From the IMG/VR virus record IMGVR_UViG_3300035188_000277, positions 82,588 through 146,587 of that record: 64,000 nt of DNA. The stretch is one strand, 5' to 3'. Below, piece by piece: positions 26,616-41,252 of the stretch. Below the pieces are notes generated by a model. The model did not search any database and had not been told where the DNA came from. It saw only the letters and a list, made by a program, of their open reading frames with translations. Source of the DNA: a virus. The translations under genes were made by a program, and so were the position numbers. Each line of letters opens with the position of its first letter. Within the stretch, counting starts at the first letter, position 1.

Positions 26616-26644
26616 AAAAAAGGGAGCCGAAGCTCCCTTTCTTT
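26616..26644. terminator. Bidirectional terminator between convergent operons
   Basis: AAAGGGAGC-CGAA-GCTCCCTTT, a 9-bp stem with a stable CGAA tetraloop, flanked by an A-run on the left and TTTCTTT on the right. It works for the rightward tape-measure operon and for the leftward transcript arriving through gp32. Confidence 0.9.
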
Positions 26645-27539
26645 ACTTTGCTAGATTCTTAAAGAATTCCAACGACTCGTCATCATCTTCATCGGAAGAT
26701 TCAAACTTTGGAGCAGTCTTTGCCTTGGCAACTGGAGCAGCTTCCTCTTCCTGCCATGGAGCCTCTTCCTCTGCACGAGCACGCTTGGCTGGAGCAGAAT
26801 CCTCTGCAAGAACCTTTGCTAGACGAGCAGATAGCTCTTCATAGGTCTTGAAGTTAGATGGAGCAAGGAATTCCTGTAGGGAATGCTCTGACTTCCAAAC
26901 CTTCTCGAGTTCTTTGTCGTCATCAAGTAGTGGCGCTGCCTTTTCAAACTCAGACTTATCGTAATTACGATATCCTTCAAGATTACGAATCTTTAGCTTG
27001 AAGTTGGCGCCAGCCCAAAGATCGAATGGGTTTACTGCTTCTTCATCAGCAAACTGTGGTTCCATTGCTTCCTTTAGACGATCAAAGATCTTCTTACCAT
27101 ACTTGAATAGGAAAACCTTACCTTCGTTTGCAGGATTACCTGAATCGCTAACAACATAAATGTTTGAGATAAAATGCAAACGGCGCTTCTGCTTACGAAC
27201 AATTTCCTTGTTAGCTTCGATACCAGAATTCCACAGCTTTGAGTTATACTCTGAAACTGGGTCGTTCTTACCGAGAGTTGTTAGTGAGTTCTCGATATAC
27301 CAGCCACCTGGACCCTGGAAACCATGGTCAAACATACGAACGAACGGAACATCTTCGTTCTCTGGCGGAGGAAGGAAACGAATAACAGCATAACCATTAC
27401 CAGCCTTATCGACTGTTGGCGACCAGAAACGATCGTCTGAAGACTTACCTTCTCCGCCAGATAGCTTATTGAGTTCGGCTGTTAGTGATTCGAGGGATTT
27501 CTTGCCTGAAGCGGCTTTGAGGGACTTAAAATCTACCAT
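26643..27539 (-). CDS. 32: Single-stranded DNA-binding protein gp32
   Basis: 298 aa, near T4 gp32 (301). The core has AVIRFLPPPENEDVPFVRMF, DHGFQGPGGWYIENSLTTLG, KRRLHFISNIYVV, GKVFLFKYGKKIFDRL, NFKLKIRNLEGYRNYDKSEF and an acidic C-terminus (SSDEDDDESLEFF) that recruits partners. T4 gp32 binds zinc with one His and three Cys; here there is no cysteine at all, and the corresponding region reads IENSLTTLGKNDPVSEYNSK. The helicase loader gp59, its partner, is encoded 1.4 kb upstream. It has its own TTGACA promoter. Confidence 0.95.
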   Translation of the reverse strand: MVDFKSLKAASGKKSLESLTAELNKLSGGEGKSSDDRFWSPTVDKAGNGYAVIRFLPPPENEDVPFVRMFDHGFQGPGGWYIENSLTTLGKNDPVSEYNSKLWNSGIEANKEIVRKQKRRLHFISNIYVVSDSGNPANEGKVFLFKYGKKIFDRLKEAMEPQFADEEAVNPFDLWAGANFKLKIRNLEGYRNYDKSEFEKAAPLLDDDKELEKVWKSEHSLQEFLAPSNFKTYEELSARLAKVLAEDSAPAKRARAEEEAPWQEEEAAPVAKAKTAPKFESSDEDDDESLEFFKNLAK

Positions 27540-27635: not shown

Positions 27636-28130
27636 CTATTTTAGGTTTGTCAAATCGTAAGTTACTACAGTCTTTCTTTTCATAGAATTATTGATTGGAC
27701 TTCTATGAAAGAAATTCGATGGGAAGGTAAGTATATCACCTTCTTCCAATTTCGGGATAATGATTTCGTCGCTGAATGGCATTTTAATTTCGATGGGAGG
27801 ACCATCTTCTGGGAATTCCAAATAATATACATTAGACCATCCACAAAGAGGATGTGTATGCCAAGGATGCTCGCTATTATGTTCGTATTGTTGAAACCAA
27901 TACGTTTCTATTTGACACTCTTTATGCCCTAGTTCTCTGACGACATCCTCGATATATGGGCCAATATAAGGCAAAAGAAACCGAAAATATTCTTTCTGGA
28001 TTCCTTTACCTACATACCAATCTGTTCTGGTAATATCGCCACTAGATTCACCAACACTACTCTTAATAAGATCAAGAACTTTATCTTTAACTAATTTGTG
28101 TTCTTTAAATTTATTGATTTTATAAAACAT
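27636..28130 (-). CDS. 2OG-Fe(II) oxygenase-like protein, 164 aa
   Basis: Start chosen at ATG 28130, preceded by TTTGGA; an in-frame TTG lies 12 bases earlier. The motif PWHTHPLCGWSNVYYLEFPE supplies the HxH/HxD iron ligands, followed by GDILTFPSNFFHRSPIN (distal His) and KRKTVVTYDL (2OG-binding Arg/Lys). The same HxH layout is seen in the 202-aa oxygenase at 37.8 kb. The substrate is unknown. Confidence 0.7.
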   Translation of the reverse strand: MFYKINKFKEHKLVKDKVLDLIKSSVGESSGDITRTDWYVGKGIQKEYFRFLLPYIGPYIEDVVRELGHKECQIETYWFQQYEHNSEHPWHTHPLCGWSNVYYLEFPEDGPPIEIKMPFSDEIIIPKLEEGDILTFPSNFFHRSPINNSMKRKTVVTYDLTNLK

Positions 28131-28140
28131 TATACATTCC

Positions 28141-28166
28141 AAAGAAACAGGGACCGAAGTCCCTGT
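28141..28166 (-). terminator. Rho-independent terminator
   Basis: On the minus strand CAGGGAC-TTCG-GTCCCTG (7-bp stem, TTCG loop) followed by TTTCTTT. It ends the transcript of the 54-aa gene just before the 2OG oxygenase gene, so the oxygenase is read through or served by an unseen promoter. Confidence 0.85.
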
Positions 28167-28391: not shown

Positions 28392-28399
28392 TATTTATT
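28392..28399 (-). promoter_or_regulatory. Late promoter box
   Basis: AATAAATA on the minus strand inside the last codons of the gp59 gene, about 58 bases before the start of the 54-aa gene, which has its own terminator. Confidence 0.55.
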
Positions 28400-28976
28400 C
28401 GTCGTAAAATTCTAAGATGATTTTTCGGAACTTGTCTTTATCATATTTTATGAAAGGAGTATACTTTTTAACCTTCAGAGAAATTTCGTCCCAGATAAGA
28501 TCGTATTCCATTTTCTTATCGAAATATGGAAGGGCTTCTGTTAACTCCAACAATATACAAAATGTTTCTAAACACAATGCATTTCTAAGATACAGCTTCA
28601 ATAGAATTGGATGTTCGTTTGGCTTACATACAAAATTGTAATTGAAAGGCTTGCAGAGATGTTTGTTAGTCTCTTGTTTGAAAACATACGATAGAGACTG
28701 ATTACGCTTCTTCCATTGAAGATACGTTTCTTGGGCTACTTCGGAATAAGCGAGATCACGTATCCATAATTTTGGATTAACACTAAAATTAGCAACAAGA
28801 AACTCGCATACATTTTCATTCTTAGCAAGTTTTTCAAAAAACACCTTATCTTTACGTTTGGCAAATGAAGCTGGTTTTAATCCGGTTTTGCCGTTGTATT
28901 TAATGTAGTCGTAGTCGCTTTTGGTAAAGTGGTTTTTGAGGGCGACATAATTTTGATACGCTTCGAAGGCTGACAT
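28395..28976 (-). CDS. 59: Helicase loader gp59
   Basis: 193 aa against 217 in T4. FTKSDYDYIKYNGKTGLKPA followed by SFAKRKDKVFFEKLAKN matches T4 gp59 (KYDVIKYNW, then YQKRRDKYFFQKLSEK), and LVANFSVNPKLWIRDL matches the T4 NLVANQDAWIGDI segment. gp59 loads the gp41 helicase onto gp32-covered forks. The gene start lies 100 bases inside the end of the SprT-like gene in another frame. Confidence 0.85.
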   Translation of the reverse strand: MSAFEAYQNYVALKNHFTKSDYDYIKYNGKTGLKPASFAKRKDKVFFEKLAKNENVCEFLVANFSVNPKLWIRDLAYSEVAQETYLQWKKRNQSLSYVFKQETNKHLCKPFNYNFVCKPNEHPILLKLYLRNALCLETFCILLELTEALPYFDKKMEYDLIWDEISLKVKKYTPFIKYDKDKFRKIILEFYDE

Positions 28977-29861: not shown

Positions 29862-30311
29862 TTAGTCCTTAATTGTGATCGTCGTATATTCACCTTTGGT
29901 CATTTTATAGAGAGTAGCAGAATTAGTGGGAGATAGACGAACGCAGCCGTGAGAAGCAGGACGCCCAAGAGCACCAACATGAGGAGTAGCATGGATAGCA
30001 TATCCTCCAGAAAAGAAAATAGAATTTGGCATAGGAGCGTTATCGTATTTCTTACTGTAGTGCATAAGCTGGTAAGAATATGGATGAAACGATCCCGTAG
30101 GAGTATAATACCCTTTACGGGCAGTAGAGACAGGCCATTGGTCAATTAACTCTCCATCTTGAAGAACTGTCATAGTCTGATGACGTTTCGAAACAATAAT
30201 ATCGTAATCTGCTTTTACTGGAGTAGAGAAGAACATAGATACAAGAACCAATAAAACTCCAACAACCATAAGTATAACTCCTGCTATGTTAGCAACTCTA
30301 TCGTTTATCAT
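29862..30311 (-). CDS. L,D-transpeptidase (YkuD family), membrane anchored, 149 aa
   Basis: Residues 10-30 form one membrane segment (GVILMVVGVLLVLVSMFF). After it comes a YkuD catalytic domain with YAIHATPHVGALGRPASHGC then VRLSPTNS; the active-site HGCxR is intact with catalytic Cys about 127. Such enzymes form 3-3 peptidoglycan cross-links or attach lipoproteins in the periplasm. In a phage it could remodel or protect the wall, or act as a lysis-timing factor. Overlaps the next upstream gene by 4 bases (ATGA). Confidence 0.85.
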   Translation of the reverse strand: MINDRVANIAGVILMVVGVLLVLVSMFFSTPVKADYDIIVSKRHQTMTVLQDGELIDQWPVSTARKGYYTPTGSFHPYSYQLMHYSKKYDNAPMPNSIFFSGGYAIHATPHVGALGRPASHGCVRLSPTNSATLYKMTKGEYTTITIKD

Positions 30312-30532: not shown

Positions 30533-30609
30533 TGGCGGTCCCGGAAGGATTCGAACCCTCGACCTTGGGAGTAGAAATCCCCTGCTCTATCCAGCTGAGC
30601 TACGGAACC
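30533..30609 (-). tRNA. tRNA-Arg(UCU)
   Basis: 77 bases with encoded CCA. Acceptor stem GGTTCCG/CGGGACC (7 bp, one G-T), D stem GCTC/GAGC, anticodon loop TTTCTAC giving anticodon TCT, T arm GAGGG-TTCGAAT-CCTTC. The top pair of the anticodon stem (27/43) is a G-A mismatch. It decodes AGA, the arginine codon heavily used in this AT-rich genome. Has its own promoter just upstream. Confidence 0.95.
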
Positions 30610-30618
30610 ATTATTAGT

Positions 30619-30647
30619 ATTATAACCTAGCAGAATTGAAAAGGCAA
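30619..30647 (-). promoter_or_regulatory. Sigma70-like promoter for tRNA-Arg
   Basis: Minus strand TTGCCT (30647-30642), 17-base spacer, TATAAT (30624-30619), about 10-15 bases before the mature 5' end of the tRNA. The -35 element lies inside the terminal hairpin of the tmRNA gene. Confidence 0.6.
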
Positions 30648-30675
30648 GTTGTTTCTGTTTCTAGGGACAACTTGC
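30644..30675 (-). terminator. Terminal hairpin of the tmRNA gene
   Basis: GCAAGTTGT and ACAACTTGC form a 9-bp stem with a 14-base loop, followed on the minus strand by CTTTTCAATT. It comes after the tag ORF and may end the coding piece or terminate transcription; the T-run is short. Confidence 0.55.
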
Positions 30676-30688
30676 GAACCCCAATGGA

Positions 30689-30736
30689 TCATGCAGCTAG
30701 TGCATAAGCTCCAAATGATGCATCATTATCGTTTGC
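30689..30736 (-). other. tmRNA tag reading frame
   Basis: 15 sense codons from the resume GCA to TGA: ANDNDASFGAYALAA. The end of the frame lies in a small hairpin (ATGCA/TGCAT) as usual for the helix holding the tag stop. The ANDN start is typical of alphaproteobacterial tags, as opposed to ANNIV-type cyanobacterial tags. Confidence 0.9.
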
Positions 30737-30954
30737 ATCTACGTTTCGCCTTTGGTCTCCTTACGACCTTACTGAATCCTGTCGAACCTGAATCGCCCCC
30801 ATCAAAGATACACCGATTATCATATCCCATCGGCTAGCACGATATAAGACCACACAAACGACCTCGGTGGCTGATGTATCTATGGTGGAGGCGGTGGGAA
30901 CTGCCCCCACGTCCAAGAAACCTATGTTTCGTCTCTCAACGACCTCGGCAAACT

Positions 30955-32520
30955 TTATTTATAAATGTTATCTCTAAGGTATTCGTAGTGATTGGGAAGA
31001 GTTTTAATGTATTGTTTCAACGCTGCTTGATGATTAAGCCAACTATATTTGATATCATGTAACTCATTAGCTAATTTTGGGTTTCGTTTCATATCGATAT
31101 TATGATCCATCTTAGTAACAAAACTGTAATTACCTGCCGCCAGAACTCTATGATAACTAAAGTTGCCTTCTTTCATTTTCAATTTTTCTGGATCAGTTGA
31201 TTGGTTTTGATCATAAAGATCTCTAAACAATTTACTAAAATAATCCCCTTCATGGTTATGATTCATAGCATTGGTTCTATGCTTCCAATAAGGAGAATCT
31301 TCTCTTTGAGAGAGAAAATATTGCGCTGTTACCCAATCTTTGGCTTCTGAGGCTTCTTTAATTACGTAATGGTTATAATATTCTCTATCAAAGTTTTTTA
31401 CATGACAATCCGTATTAAGGAGGATACGAGCAATATTCTCAATCATAGATTGAGTCAAAAATAACCCTGTAGATCTCAGAGGTCCAATGAACGCACAAGA
31501 AAGCCCAACTGCAATAACATTTTTATACCAAGGAGCCTTTCTAACTCCTGGAGTGAATTTCATAGAACGAAATTCTAAACCGTCCGCCCTTGAACCATAT
31601 CTTTTTCTTATACTTTCACGTAGTTCCTCTTTAGCCGATTCTTCGTTGGTATGATTACTGCTATAAACATAGCCAGAACCAATTCTATCCCAAATTGGAA
31701 TATTCCACTCCCATCCACTATCTAACGCTACACAATCTGTGAAACTAACCATTTCTTCTTTTTTACATTCGTAAGGAATATTGGTCGCAATCGCTCTATC
31801 GTTTACAAGAACTTCTGAAAAATCTATTAATCCTATTTTCAACCCTTGTTCTAATAGAATAGATCTAAACCCAGAACAGTCAATATAAAGATCTGCAGTT
31901 AGTGGTCCATTCTCATTAGTCTCTAAACATGTGATACCATTGTCATCAGTCCGAATAGCATAAATGTCATCGATGATATGTTTAACACCGTTCGGAATAG
32001 CGACAAGGTCTTTTAACATCAATCCAAATTTATAAGCGTCGAAATGATACGCTTTTTCTATATTAGGATTCCATTTCATTGGTCCTGGTTTGTCAGTATA
32101 TTTGTTTTGAAGAACCATATGATAGTTGTCATCAAAAAATTCAGGAAAATCAAAAGGCTGGAATAAATCTGGATATTGATGACAAAGGTTATAGAATAAT
32201 TTAATATCTCTCATAGGGACTGGAGGCGTAATCCCCTTAGTCAAATCATAAAAACTTTTACCCTTCTGATAAAAGTCTGTTAGCCTAATGGTTGTTTTAT
32301 AAACAGCGTCACACTTTGGCATCCAAATTTGTTCTGGGATACCAAATGGTTTCATAAACCTATTGATGTTTACTAAACTTGATTCTCCAACGCCAATAAT
32401 TGGAACGTTTGTGGACTCTATCAGAGTAATGTTAACATTAGGTACATTTTTAGACAAAAGGGCAGCAGTCATCCAACCAGATGATCCGCCGCCCACAATC
32501 ATAATACTTTTAACTTTCAT
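30955..32520 (-). CDS. Flavin-dependent halogenase family protein no. 1, catalytic Glu replaced
   Basis: 521 aa, standard length for Trp-halogenase family. FAD site IMIVGGGSSGWMTAALLSK (7-25); catalytic-Lys position K75 in DAVYKTTIRL; halogenase signature W270-E-W-N-I-P275 (WxWxIP). In PrnA the second catalytic residue is Glu in the PLEST segment; here the segment is GPLRST with Arg349 in its place. The enzyme may therefore be altered in activity or have another role. Needs reduced FAD from a reductase, presumably the host's. Its start overlaps a 38-codon ORF by ATGA. Confidence 0.85.
   Translation of the reverse strand: MKVKSIMIVGGGSSGWMTAALLSKNVPNVNITLIESTNVPIIGVGESSLVNINRFMKPFGIPEQIWMPKCDAVYKTTIRLTDFYQKGKSFYDLTKGITPPVPMRDIKLFYNLCHQYPDLFQPFDFPEFFDDNYHMVLQNKYTDKPGPMKWNPNIEKAYHFDAYKFGLMLKDLVAIPNGVKHIIDDIYAIRTDDNGITCLETNENGPLTADLYIDCSGFRSILLEQGLKIGLIDFSEVLVNDRAIATNIPYECKKEEMVSFTDCVALDSGWEWNIPIWDRIGSGYVYSSNHTNEESAKEELRESIRKRYGSRADGLEFRSMKFTPGVRKAPWYKNVIAVGLSCAFIGPLRSTGLFLTQSMIENIARILLNTDCHVKNFDREYYNHYVIKEASEAKDWVTAQYFLSQREDSPYWKHRTNAMNHNHEGDYFSKLFRDLYDQNQSTDPEKLKMKEGNFSYHRVLAAGNYSFVTKMDHNIDMKRNPKLANELHDIKYSWLNHQAALKQYIKTLPNHYEYLRDNIYK
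30956..30963 (-). promoter_or_regulatory. Perfect late promoter in front of the tmRNA
   Basis: Minus strand TATAAATA followed by AAGTTTGCCGAGG. In T4 late promoters transcription starts about six bases past the box, which here is the expected 5' end of the acceptor piece. The box is embedded in the last codons of the halogenase gene. Confidence 0.75.
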
Positions 32521-38582: not shown

Positions 38583-38658
38583 TGGTGCTGCCGGAGAGAT
38601 TCGAACTCCCGACCTGATGATTACTAATCAACTGCTCTACCAACTGAGCTACGGCAGC
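38583..38658 (-). tRNA. tRNA-Thr with anticodon AGU
   Basis: 76 bases including CCA. Acceptor GCTGCCG/CGGCAGC perfect, D stem GCTC/GAGC, T arm GGGAG-TTCGAAT-CTCTC, anticodon loop TTAGTAA giving AGT. Threonine identity elements G1-C72, C2-G71, G35 and U36 are present. Bacterial threonine tRNAs normally start the anticodon with G, U or C; A34 is unusual. The anticodon stem has a T-T mismatch (28/42). The stop codon of the preceding oxygenase gene lies inside the tRNA at positions 8-10. Confidence 0.93.
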
Positions 38659-39236
38659 ATTAACACGTCGTCGCTTTTGACCGTCATATCAATTTTATTA
38701 AAAAACGCAGTAAAAGTCAATCTTGAATTTTCATTTTCTCCGAAACCACACATAGCACTATGATTAAATTTAGATTTATACAAGACTAATCTATTATAGA
38801 TGTTTTCAATATACTCTACTTTATTATCGTCTTTAAATATCATCGTTCCGCTATTCAAAGGAGGATTTTTATTAAGATATACCACTCCCGCATATATACA
38901 TCTAGCGTCTGTGTGTATCCAAGAATTCTCAAAAATACAATCTTTATCTAATCTATGGAAGTAAAAAGTCCCTTCCCAATTGTAATTATATGAGAATTTA
39001 TCATATGCTCCTAAGAAACAACCATTAAAAATGTCATGTACCAGAAGATCAGTTTTTTCTTTATTTTCTAAAGAAGTTTTGTGTAAAGGGTATGTTCTTT
39101 TACCTTTCCAATATGTTCTTCTTTCATCATTAAATTTCTGAGTATCATTCTGAAAAAATTTTAAAGTGTTCGCCCACTTAACAATCTCATCAGGATAAAG
39201 AAAGACATTATCAATCACATATATGTCTTTTAGCAT
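38649..39236 (-). CDS. 2OG-Fe(II) oxygenase-like protein, 195 aa
   Basis: Ligands H108-T-D110 (SWIHTDARCIYAGVVYLN) and H159 (YKSKFNHSAMCGFG), with Arg172 (NSRLTFTAFF). Resembles the small 2OG-like phage family in which a flexible loop (NKNPPLNSGTMIFKD) follows the first ligands. Its TAG stop lies inside tRNA-Thr, so mRNA and tRNA share a transcript. Overlaps the kinase-like gene by 26 bases. Confidence 0.75.
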   Translation of the reverse strand: MLKDIYVIDNVFLYPDEIVKWANTLKFFQNDTQKFNDERRTYWKGKRTYPLHKTSLENKEKTDLLVHDIFNGCFLGAYDKFSYNYNWEGTFYFHRLDKDCIFENSWIHTDARCIYAGVVYLNKNPPLNSGTMIFKDDNKVEYIENIYNRLVLYKSKFNHSAMCGFGENENSRLTFTAFFNKIDMTVKSDDVLMLP

Positions 39237-39648
39237 CTATCAACCTTAATACATTTTCAATGTCGTCTTGATCAAATTTCGTAATACGTATCTCGTATTT
39301 ATCTGGCTCTTCAAATATCTTGTTGGTGTCTTCGTATCTACCTTCTTTGATAGTATCCATCCAGATAGTTATGTCTGGTTGGAAGAAACTTCTATACAGA
39401 TTTCTTGGACAAACAAAATCACAAATAGCAATAATATCATTCTTACAACAAATCTCAGCATTCTGGGTCATACGACACAACTGACGAAATCTACCGATGT
39501 CTGAGAAATCCCAATCATCGTAGAATTCTCTCATCTCATCGCCATTGTATAAAGCGACTAATTCGTTTTTATCGTTAAGGACATCAAACAATTTGTTAGC
39601 AAATGTGGTCTTCCCGCTTCCAGGAAGTCCAGTCACAAGTATTTTCAT
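39211..39648 (-). CDS. APS-kinase-like P-loop kinase, 145 aa
   Basis: Walker A ILVTGLPGSGKTTFANKLF; then ALYNGDEMREFYDDWDFSD, matching the adenylylsulfate-kinase D-G-D-x-R and the DFS segment; then IAICDFVCPRNLYRSFF and IWMDTIKEGRYEDTN. Shorter than true APS kinases (about 180 aa) and lacking part of the lid. It could phosphorylate a small molecule or the product of the neighbouring enzymes. Abuts halogenase no. 2. Confidence 0.75.
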   Translation of the reverse strand: MKILVTGLPGSGKTTFANKLFDVLNDKNELVALYNGDEMREFYDDWDFSDIGRFRQLCRMTQNAEICCKNDIIAICDFVCPRNLYRSFFQPDITIWMDTIKEGRYEDTNKIFEEPDKYEIRITKFDQDDIENVLRLIDAKRHICD

Positions 39649-41252
39649 CAGTCTGTACCGTGGATATGTTCTTTTAGATAATCATACATTGTAGGACAAT
39701 CTTTGACTATTTCCTTCCACTCAGCCTTTTTCTTATCTAGGTTATCAGCAGCTAATTTATATTTTTCTTTCCACTCTTCTTTGCATATATCATTATACGC
39801 ATACAAAGAATTGTTATCAGTTGGAAAATAATTCATACCAGAAGAAATAAATGGTATACCGCCCAAACCAGTAAAACCATAATTTTCCATTCTAGCGTCT
39901 GCAGCCCTAGTAAAACCACTTACTTCGCTTGTGTCTACCTTCTTTGTTATTGATCCAAAGTCTCTTTTACCGATATCTCTCCAATATGGAGTATCGTCTC
40001 TGTGAGACAAAGCGTAGTGTAATGCAACGAAATCTGCAAAAGCCTTGAAGTATCTTCTACAAGCATAATTATAAACGTCAATGTCCCACTGGCTCACATA
40101 ACCTTCTGAATCTCTACCAAGAATACGAATCATTCTCATCAAAAATTCATGAATGCTAAGAAGTCCATTACTCTCAAGCGGCTCAATGAATCCCGCAGAC
40201 AATCCAATAGCTGCTACGTTCTTGACCCAAATGCGCTCGTGGATACCAACACGTGATTTGATATTCTTAAATTTAATTCCTTGGTTATTAAAATCCATCT
40301 CGTCATCAAAATGACCAGTGCTACGGAGATATTGTTTAAACTCTTCTAGAGCATCTTCATCACTGATGTATTTGTCTGAATAAACATATCCTGTTCCCAA
40401 ACGATTCCACAATGGGATTGTCCACACCCAACCATTATTAATAGCGTGGCAGTTGGTATATGTAATCATTTCCTTACGCTTATCAACATAAGGAATCTGA
40501 GCAGCCCAAGCAGAATTGTTTGGTAGAATATCGCTCATAGAAATGAACGGTTCGTTTAGAGCTCCAGCTAAAAGAATAGATTTGAAACCAGTGCAATCAA
40601 TGAACAAATCGGCGGTGACTTTTTCGCCATTATCTAGCTGAAGAAAGTTGATACCGTTCTCATCATCAAAATCAACCATCTTTACTTCAGCTAGTATATT
40701 CTTAACACCACGTGGAATAGCGTATTCTGTTCTTAACCAATTAGCAAACTTGACAGCATTAAAATGATAAGCTGTGTCTTTTCTGAAATTGAAGTTTGGT
40801 AATACACCTTCTGAGTTTTCAAAAATTTTATTTTCATTAACCAACGCCATGATTGGACACATACAATCTGCATAATCACTATTAGGCGTTTCTGGGTAAA
40901 GGAACTTTTTAAAATACCAATCATTTAATACAGCAACATTACCATCAGTATTGGTAGAACCAAACGGATAATGAAACGCTCCAGCGCCTTTTTTATAAAA
41001 GTCCTCGAATCTAATAGAAAGTTTATACGTTGCATCTGTAATTTTCATGAAATCTTTGTCTTCGATCTCAAGAAGTTTTAACCAAGAATTAATAAAACCT
41101 AATGTTGACTCTCCAACACCAACAGTTGGAATATTTGGCGATTCAATTAGAGTAATATTTTTATTAGGAAAAACTTTGATCAAAGTGGCTGCAGCCATCC
41201 ATCCAGCTGAACCACCACCAACGATGACAATCTTATCAATTTTCTTAGTCAT
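39648..41252 (-). CDS. Flavin-dependent halogenase no. 2 (Trp-halogenase family)
   Basis: 534 aa. FAD motif IVIVGGGSAGWMAAATLIK (8-26), VGVGESTLGF, catalytic Lys77 in DATYKLSIRF, signature W275-V-W-T-I-P280, and catalytic Glu360 in FIEPLESNGLL. All key residues are intact, unlike halogenase no. 1. Members chlorinate or brominate tryptophan and other aromatic substrates, free or in peptides, with FADH2, O2 and halide. Operon neighbours are radical SAM, kinase-like and 2OG oxygenase genes. Confidence 0.9.
   Translation of the reverse strand: MTKKIDKIVIVGGGSAGWMAAATLIKVFPNKNITLIESPNIPTVGVGESTLGFINSWLKLLEIEDKDFMKITDATYKLSIRFEDFYKKGAGAFHYPFGSTNTDGNVAVLNDWYFKKFLYPETPNSDYADCMCPIMALVNENKIFENSEGVLPNFNFRKDTAYHFNAVKFANWLRTEYAIPRGVKNILAEVKMVDFDDENGINFLQLDNGEKVTADLFIDCTGFKSILLAGALNEPFISMSDILPNNSAWAAQIPYVDKRKEMITYTNCHAINNGWVWTIPLWNRLGTGYVYSDKYISDEDALEEFKQYLRSTGHFDDEMDFNNQGIKFKNIKSRVGIHERIWVKNVAAIGLSAGFIEPLESNGLLSIHEFLMRMIRILGRDSEGYVSQWDIDVYNYACRRYFKAFADFVALHYALSHRDDTPYWRDIGKRDFGSITKKVDTSEVSGFTRAADARMENYGFTGLGGIPFISSGMNYFPTDNNSLYAYNDICKEEWKEKYKLAADNLDKKKAEWKEIVKDCPTMYDYLKEHIHGTD

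Follow-up and report, generated by a model that had tools for sequence, protein, structure and literature searches.

A circularly permuted two-piece tmRNA gene with a putative late promoter in a T4-like phage, and HNH endonuclease-like reading frames in the spacers of related genes

The window, that is, the whole 64,000-nucleotide stretch of DNA analyzed here, corresponds to positions 82588-146587 of a virus record of 146,587 bases. The phage is T4-like, as shown by its genes for the T4 portal (582 bits), major head protein, tail sheath, tail tube, gp32 and gp59. Homologues of gp55 (52% over 108 amino acids) and gp45 (43% over 219 amino acids) are also encoded. A complete circularly permuted (two-piece) tmRNA gene is located at 30640-30963 on the minus strand of the window and is followed on its 3′ side by tRNA-Arg(UCU), gp33, gp59 and gp32, in that order (Table 1). 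Megablast of the whole region against phages returned a single 59-base match in the halogenase gene, and therefore no near relative can be named. No SmpB was recognisable in the 146.6-kb record.

Table 1. Features of the tmRNA locus and its surroundings, in window coordinates
Feature	Position	Strand	Basis
Tryptophan halogenase-like gene, directly upstream of the tmRNA	30955..32520	-	PF04820, 312.7 bits
Putative late promoter TATAAATA, first base 81 nt before the CCA end, without a -35 box	30956..30963	-	motif position conserved among phage copies
Acceptor half of tmRNA: T arm, 3′ acceptor strand CGCCUCC and encoded ACCA with its end at 30883; 5′ end approximate	30883..30944	-	RF04321 alignment
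Spacer, 82 nt, predicted to be removed on maturation	30801..30882	-	fold
Coding half of tmRNA: 5′ acceptor strand GGGGGCG from 30800, D-loop part, tag frame, 3′ hairpin	30640..30800	-	Rfam, ARAGORN, fold
Tag reading frame ANDNDASFGAYALAA, stop TGA	30689..30736	-	ARAGORN and fold
3′-terminal hairpin GCAAGUUGU...ACAACUUGC, then CUUUUC; possible 3′ end or weak terminator	30644..30675	-	fold, z -1.3
Sigma70-type promoter TTGCCT-17-TATAAT for tRNA-Arg(UCU)	30619..30647	-	kept before the tRNA in close relatives despite differing spacer sequence
tRNA-Arg(UCU), conserved tmRNA partner in this phage clade	30533..30609	-	Rfam, ARAGORN, relatives
gp33, late-transcription coactivator, 72 aa	29478..29696	-	PF16805, 61.7 bits; phrog_254
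gp59, DNA helicase loader	28395..28976	-	phrog_269, E 3e-54
gp32, single-strand DNA-binding protein	26643..27539	-	phrog_224, E 7.7e-113

The halogenase gene adjacent to the tmRNA is one of two diverged tryptophan-halogenase-like genes (phrog_2928), the other being located at 39648-41252, and its product shows 33-43% identity to the best cyanophage halogenases. A protein with an L,D-transpeptidase (YkuD) domain and an N-terminal hydrophobic stretch is encoded at 29862-30311, between tRNA-Arg and gp33. The products of 27636-28142, 38649-39236 and 39211-39648 are, respectively, 2OG-Fe(II) oxygenase-like, a DUF6445 match and APS-kinase-like.

An earlier reading, made from the sequence alone, had proposed a permuted two-piece tmRNA of the alphaproteobacterial type at this locus, with no strand given, and had called for a covariance-model search. 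The search yielded matches above cut-off both to RF04321 tmRNA_permuted (30944-30689, 91.5 bits, E 2.5e-16, cut-off 47) and to RF01849 alpha_tmRNA (30981-30642, 81.6 bits, cut-off 50), and a permuted tmRNA with the tag ANDNDASFGAYALAA was called by ARAGORN at 30598-30975. Every element of such a gene is present, and the proposal was borne out with respect to both architecture and type. The acceptor half precedes the coding half, and the CCA is encoded. All seven acceptor pairs are formed, including a G3.U70 wobble, the mark of an alanine acceptor. This wobble is present in all 69 of the phage tmRNA copies that were scored, and acceptor pairs 5 and 6 co-vary. In the predicted fold of the window tmRNA, the spacer ends are complementary (AGAUACA/UGUAUCU) and lengthen the acceptor stem; the 82 nt between the halves contain neither an ORF nor an endonuclease gene. 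The tag frame ends in a degron followed by the stop codon and is open in relatives, most of whose tags end in an LAA-type degron. A standard terminator 3′ of the window tmRNA is unsupported, the z value of the 3′ hairpin being -1.3. The stop of the tag frame is TGA (30689-30691) in the window and TAA in the close relatives L140, L155 and L184, whose tags are nearly identical to it, and unusual tag starts and ends (AAKAANDNTPFEAMKIAA, AKKAHNDNINYSAMKIAA) occur among the phage tmRNAs L002, L066 and L074.

Eighty loci were found via gp59, and relatives with at least 54% identity nearly all carry the tmRNA and/or tRNA-Arg(UCU) before gp59 where enough sequence is available. The close linkage of tmRNA and tRNA-Arg(UCU) would be compatible with a function at AGA/AGG codons that cause ribosomes to stall. 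In L036, L244, L245, L067 and L265 the tRNA promoter is missing, and the tRNA directly follows the tmRNA 3′ hairpin, as if the two were co-transcribed.

The sequence-only reading also implied novelty, phage ssrA being known to it in one-piece form only. This part has to be withdrawn: two-piece tmRNAs in phages, those of Melnitz and Mosig among them, were published in 2022 (PMC9004378), and the window gene is a further example. In the published survey of 18,146 phage genomes, 402 had tmRNA and 53 structures were putatively two-piece, mostly of marine or aquatic origin; the Melnitz tmRNA was assigned an early promoter, and early tagging of host proteins was suggested (PMC9004378). A blastn search with the window tmRNA retrieved only short matches, to Mosig, Melnitz, a Mesorhizobium phage and an Erythrobacter phage. 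Melnitz (MZ577097) and Mosig (MT647606) share with the window a two-piece tmRNA in a T4-like phage, presumably of the Kyanoviridae in the case of the window (PMC9004378 for the two isolates), and the order tmRNA, gp33, gp59, gp32, with other genes in between; both have an annotated SsrA, and their similarity to the window tmRNA is limited to short stretches. Like the window, Melnitz has TATAAATA, located 77 nt before the CCA end. Unlike the window, Melnitz (L212) has TTGACA-17-TATAAATA upstream of SsrA, a possible early plus late arrangement, and a reported glutamine riboswitch, whereas the window tmRNA lacks the -35 box of Melnitz and differs from both phages in being paired with tRNA-Arg(UCU). 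In Mosig (L211), a tmRNA is present and the late motif is absent. The genome of this Pelagibacter phage also contains a manA RNA motif (Rfam) at L211:8382-8589 (64 bits, cut-off 55.2), near a rubrerythrin gene.

Upstream of the window tmRNA, TATAAATA overlaps the stop codon (30955-30957) of the halogenase gene. There are four exact copies of this sequence in the 64-kb window. Since roughly 10 copies are expected there by chance (an estimate for the same composition), the 8-mer alone is weak evidence; its count in the window is not significant and was dropped in favor of a positional test. Only ARAGORN-confirmed loci were counted in this test, as spacer-pattern matches in viral contigs mixed true genes with chance ones. 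Of 73 distinct permuted tmRNA genes from phages, which are not phylogenetically independent, 50 have NATAAATA at a distance of 73-81 nt upstream of the CCA end; the tally varies by set, being 51 with a wider window and 49 of 72 with a stricter set. ATAAATA occupies that position in 49-51 of 72-73 distinct phage copies, compared with a median of 0 across 128 A/T 7-mers, and elsewhere in the upstream stretch NATAAATA is nearly absent (2 occurrences in 18,022 positions). None of 143 alphaproteobacterial ssrA genes (0/98 and 0/45) has the motif at the phage position. As the initial set of host genes had a high GC content (AT 0.45), an AT-rich host set was added; of the 143 ssrA genes, 24 have an AT content of at least 0.6, and 0 of these 24 have the motif at the phage position.

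The presence of the motif follows that of gp33: it was found in 41 of 50 phage records with gp33 and in 9 of 23 without, many of the latter being short fragments, and among records of at least 80 kb in 8 of 10 with gp33 and 0 of 5 without (Fisher p 0.007). In the phage studied here, NATAAATA is also located 16-47 nt before the genes for the major head protein, tail sheath, tail tube, tail fibre, tail-tube cap, baseplate wedge and head closure. The late consensus of cyanophages is NATAAATA (PMC2984593). As for the features of a T4-type late promoter, TATAAATA is present in the window, a -35 element is absent, and gp55, gp33 and gp45 are all encoded. The earlier claim that a phage late promoter drives the window tmRNA is thus strongly supported by sequence comparison.

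No -35 box was found before the window tmRNA or its closest kin (L155, L235, L246, L252, L260 and L266). Roughly half of the relatives with the motif, among them Melnitz, have a -35-like box (mostly TTGAC) ca. 17 nt upstream of the -10 element, in the hybrid forms TTGACA-17-TATAAATA or TTGACT-17-TATAATAAATA. These hybrids resemble promoters of RB49 and cyanophage S-PM2 in which early and late elements overlap (PMC2984593); the window copy retains the late element alone. Relatives with the -35-like box therefore probably carry an overlapping sigma70 promoter and would be expressed early plus late, while the window tmRNA, because it lacks the -35 box, looks late only.

One may suppose instead that TATAAATA is nothing but the -10 box of a sigma70 promoter and that expression of the same tmRNA is early or constitutive, the view put forward for Melnitz. 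TATAAA is indeed a good -10 element, TTGACA is found in many relatives at a distance of exactly 17 nt on its upstream side, and the Melnitz promoter was called early (PMC9004378). We nevertheless consider this unlikely, since a -35 box is lacking in the window copy and the six closest kin named above, conservation extends over the full ATAAATA rather than TATAAT, the late motif is retained beside a perfect TATAAT in TATAATAAATA, and structural genes are preceded by the same motif. As can be seen from its sequence, the Melnitz promoter that was called early contains the full late consensus. The comparison points to control of phage tmRNA that is late, or early plus late, contrary to the early promoter published for Melnitz. 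No report of late promoter control of a phage tmRNA was found in the open-licence literature searched.

We consider it likely that the gene is an intact phage permuted ssrA, transcribed from a late promoter, processed into two pieces and serving late ribosome rescue together with host SmpB. The RNA polymerase of the host, assisted by the phage proteins gp55 and gp33 and by the gp45 clamp, would start the transcript at the phage late promoter. The two halves would then fold into one tRNA-like domain, excision of the 82-nt spacer by host tRNA-processing enzymes would yield two pieces held together by base pairing, and the two-piece tmRNA, charged by AlaRS, would be delivered to stalled ribosomes by host SmpB, its presumed partner. 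Stalled ribosomes would be freed, and the nascent chain would receive the ...ALAA tag that marks it for proteolysis. The phage would probably benefit by sustained ribosome turnover late in infection. What the sequences show directly is the anatomy of the gene, the covariation of the acceptor stem, the statistics of the motif, the gene order, the separation from host tmRNAs in a tree and the lack of a recognisable smpB in the record; the time of transcription, the processing into two pieces, the charging, the use of host SmpB and the benefit for late protein synthesis are inferred.

A phage tmRNA might also be a host-takeover device that tags host proteins, as was suggested for Melnitz (PMC9004378). 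The window tag is unlike the tags of sampled host genes and has a canonical degron at its end, and a phage tmRNA of the DS6A type, consisting of the tRNA domain only, inhibits host tmRNA (PMC4131195). However, late timing is ill-suited to takeover, the tag frame of the window tmRNA is intact, unlike that of DS6A, and trans-translation targets stalled ribosomes rather than chosen proteins, so that we regard takeover as quite improbable. That the window tmRNA is an inert passenger or a decaying copy of a host gene, as its alpha_tmRNA score of 82 bits against 143-313 bits for nearly all sampled hosts might suggest, is hardly credible, since phages that have diverged strongly retain all the acceptor pairs, G3.U70, the tag frame and the promoter, with compensatory changes, and the lower score accompanies a shortened middle region and the loss of the 5′ leader hairpin seen in hosts. 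Late ribosome rescue is the preferred reading. A late promoter gives a testable timing to phage tmRNA and favors ribosome rescue during virion production over early takeover, contrary to the suggestion for Melnitz; the Melnitz gene itself bears the same late motif. Cultured relatives are available (Melnitz on OM43 and Mosig on SAR11), making direct testing possible.

Alphaproteobacterial ssrA genes (RF01849, e.g., that of Caulobacter) are similar to the window gene in their permuted order, tRNA-like domain and tag of the ANDN...AA type. Most of them differ from it in having a leader hairpin and a CTATATT-type -10 element farther upstream, and none has ATAAATA at the phage position. A tree was built from 70 phage and 107 host tmRNA cores, with 160 alignment columns. 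The T4-like phage tmRNAs fall outside the sampled host group, and only three copies, all from phages without gp33, group with hosts. The window tmRNA is nested in a phage clade of 22 rows (support 100/96). Because the alignment is short and its bootstrap unsettled, the tree is read as showing the separation of phage and host sequences and not the exact branching order. The gene looks like an old phage gene with no visible recent capture, and the proposal of the sequence-only reading that ssrA was taken from an alphaproteobacterial host finds no support. Recent host capture is likewise unsupported by this tree, whose host set consists of sampled alphaproteobacteria and may lack SAR11.

A distance of 520 nt separates the tmRNA halves in L240 and its near-copies, and within this spacer there is an ORF of 154 amino acids that matches the homing endonucleases of phrog_655 (E 6.8e-14), the Pfam HNH match being borderline (21.0 bits, cut-off 21.4). 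Protein searches with the L240 ORF, combined with inspection of the flanks for acceptor arms with G3.U70, a tag-like downstream sequence and Rfam matches, revealed an HNH homing-endonuclease-like ORF inside the predicted excised spacer in about 19 distinct lineages: L479 (the L240 group), L486, L487, L507, L509, L514, L515, L516, L517, L519, L521, L522, L523, L526, L528, L530, L531, L537 and L547. Examples are L240:2563-3255, L486:1381-2083 and L487:1112-1798. As one full-length match, L516 (45.8), L517 (42.7) and L519 (43.0) are below the Rfam cut-off in a scoring that covered the lineages other than L531. More distant, HNH-only relatives failed the flank test. The acceptor arms are diverse yet paired in each lineage (GGGGGTG/CACCTCC, GGGCCAG/CTGGTCC, GGGCTAG/CTAGTCC, GGGGCAG/CTGCTCC and others). 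The spacer ORF mostly starts 53-60 nt past the CCA; several ORFs stop in a conserved TTATGAT just before the mature 5′ end, and others extend shortly into the coding half. In most copies with a spacer ORF, a hairpin covering the RBS is located between the CCA and the ORF, with TATAAATA or CTAAATA in its loop. Its z values are -4.1, -6.9 and -5.8 with dinucleotide shuffling and -2.6 to -8.2 with mononucleotide shuffling, L509 being outside this test. T4 I-TevI is controlled by a layout of this kind, in which the loop of an RBS hairpin carries a late promoter.

It is likely, as judged from these comparisons, that the phage permuted tmRNAs form a separate late-controlled lineage whose spacer is a landing place for an HNH homing-endonuclease family of its own. 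The RBS-sequestering hairpin would keep the endonuclease silent on the pre-tmRNA, and its late promoter loop would allow expression only from the endonuclease's own late transcript; the window gene would be an empty-spacer member of this lineage. An endonuclease gene in the spacer would be harmless to the tmRNA, since the spacer would be removed during maturation. Homing activity of the spacer ORFs is presumed. No spacer-type endonuclease relative was recognisable in the phage studied here, and the family gave only two short HNH-only matches in 289 alphaproteobacterial genomes.

In a 2025 paper on a tmRNA database, homing endonuclease genes are mentioned solely for the group I introns of intron-form genes, and the only contents noted for permuted spacers are a tRNA-Ala and a repeat (PMC11915505). 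The tmRNA genes with group I introns bearing LAGLIDADG homing endonucleases (PMC11915505) have in common with the present ones an endonuclease gene in a part removed from the RNA, but the relatives of the window gene carry the HNH type, in the spacer of a permuted gene and not in an intron. The endonuclease-in-spacer arrangement is apparently unreported, no description of it having been found in the open-licence literature searched, and would, if true, represent a novel way for a selfish element to exploit gene permutation. At L485:1501-2234, an endonuclease ORF of the same type is located not within a tmRNA gene but immediately upstream of one that is intact, possibly a case of homing by a neighbouring gene.
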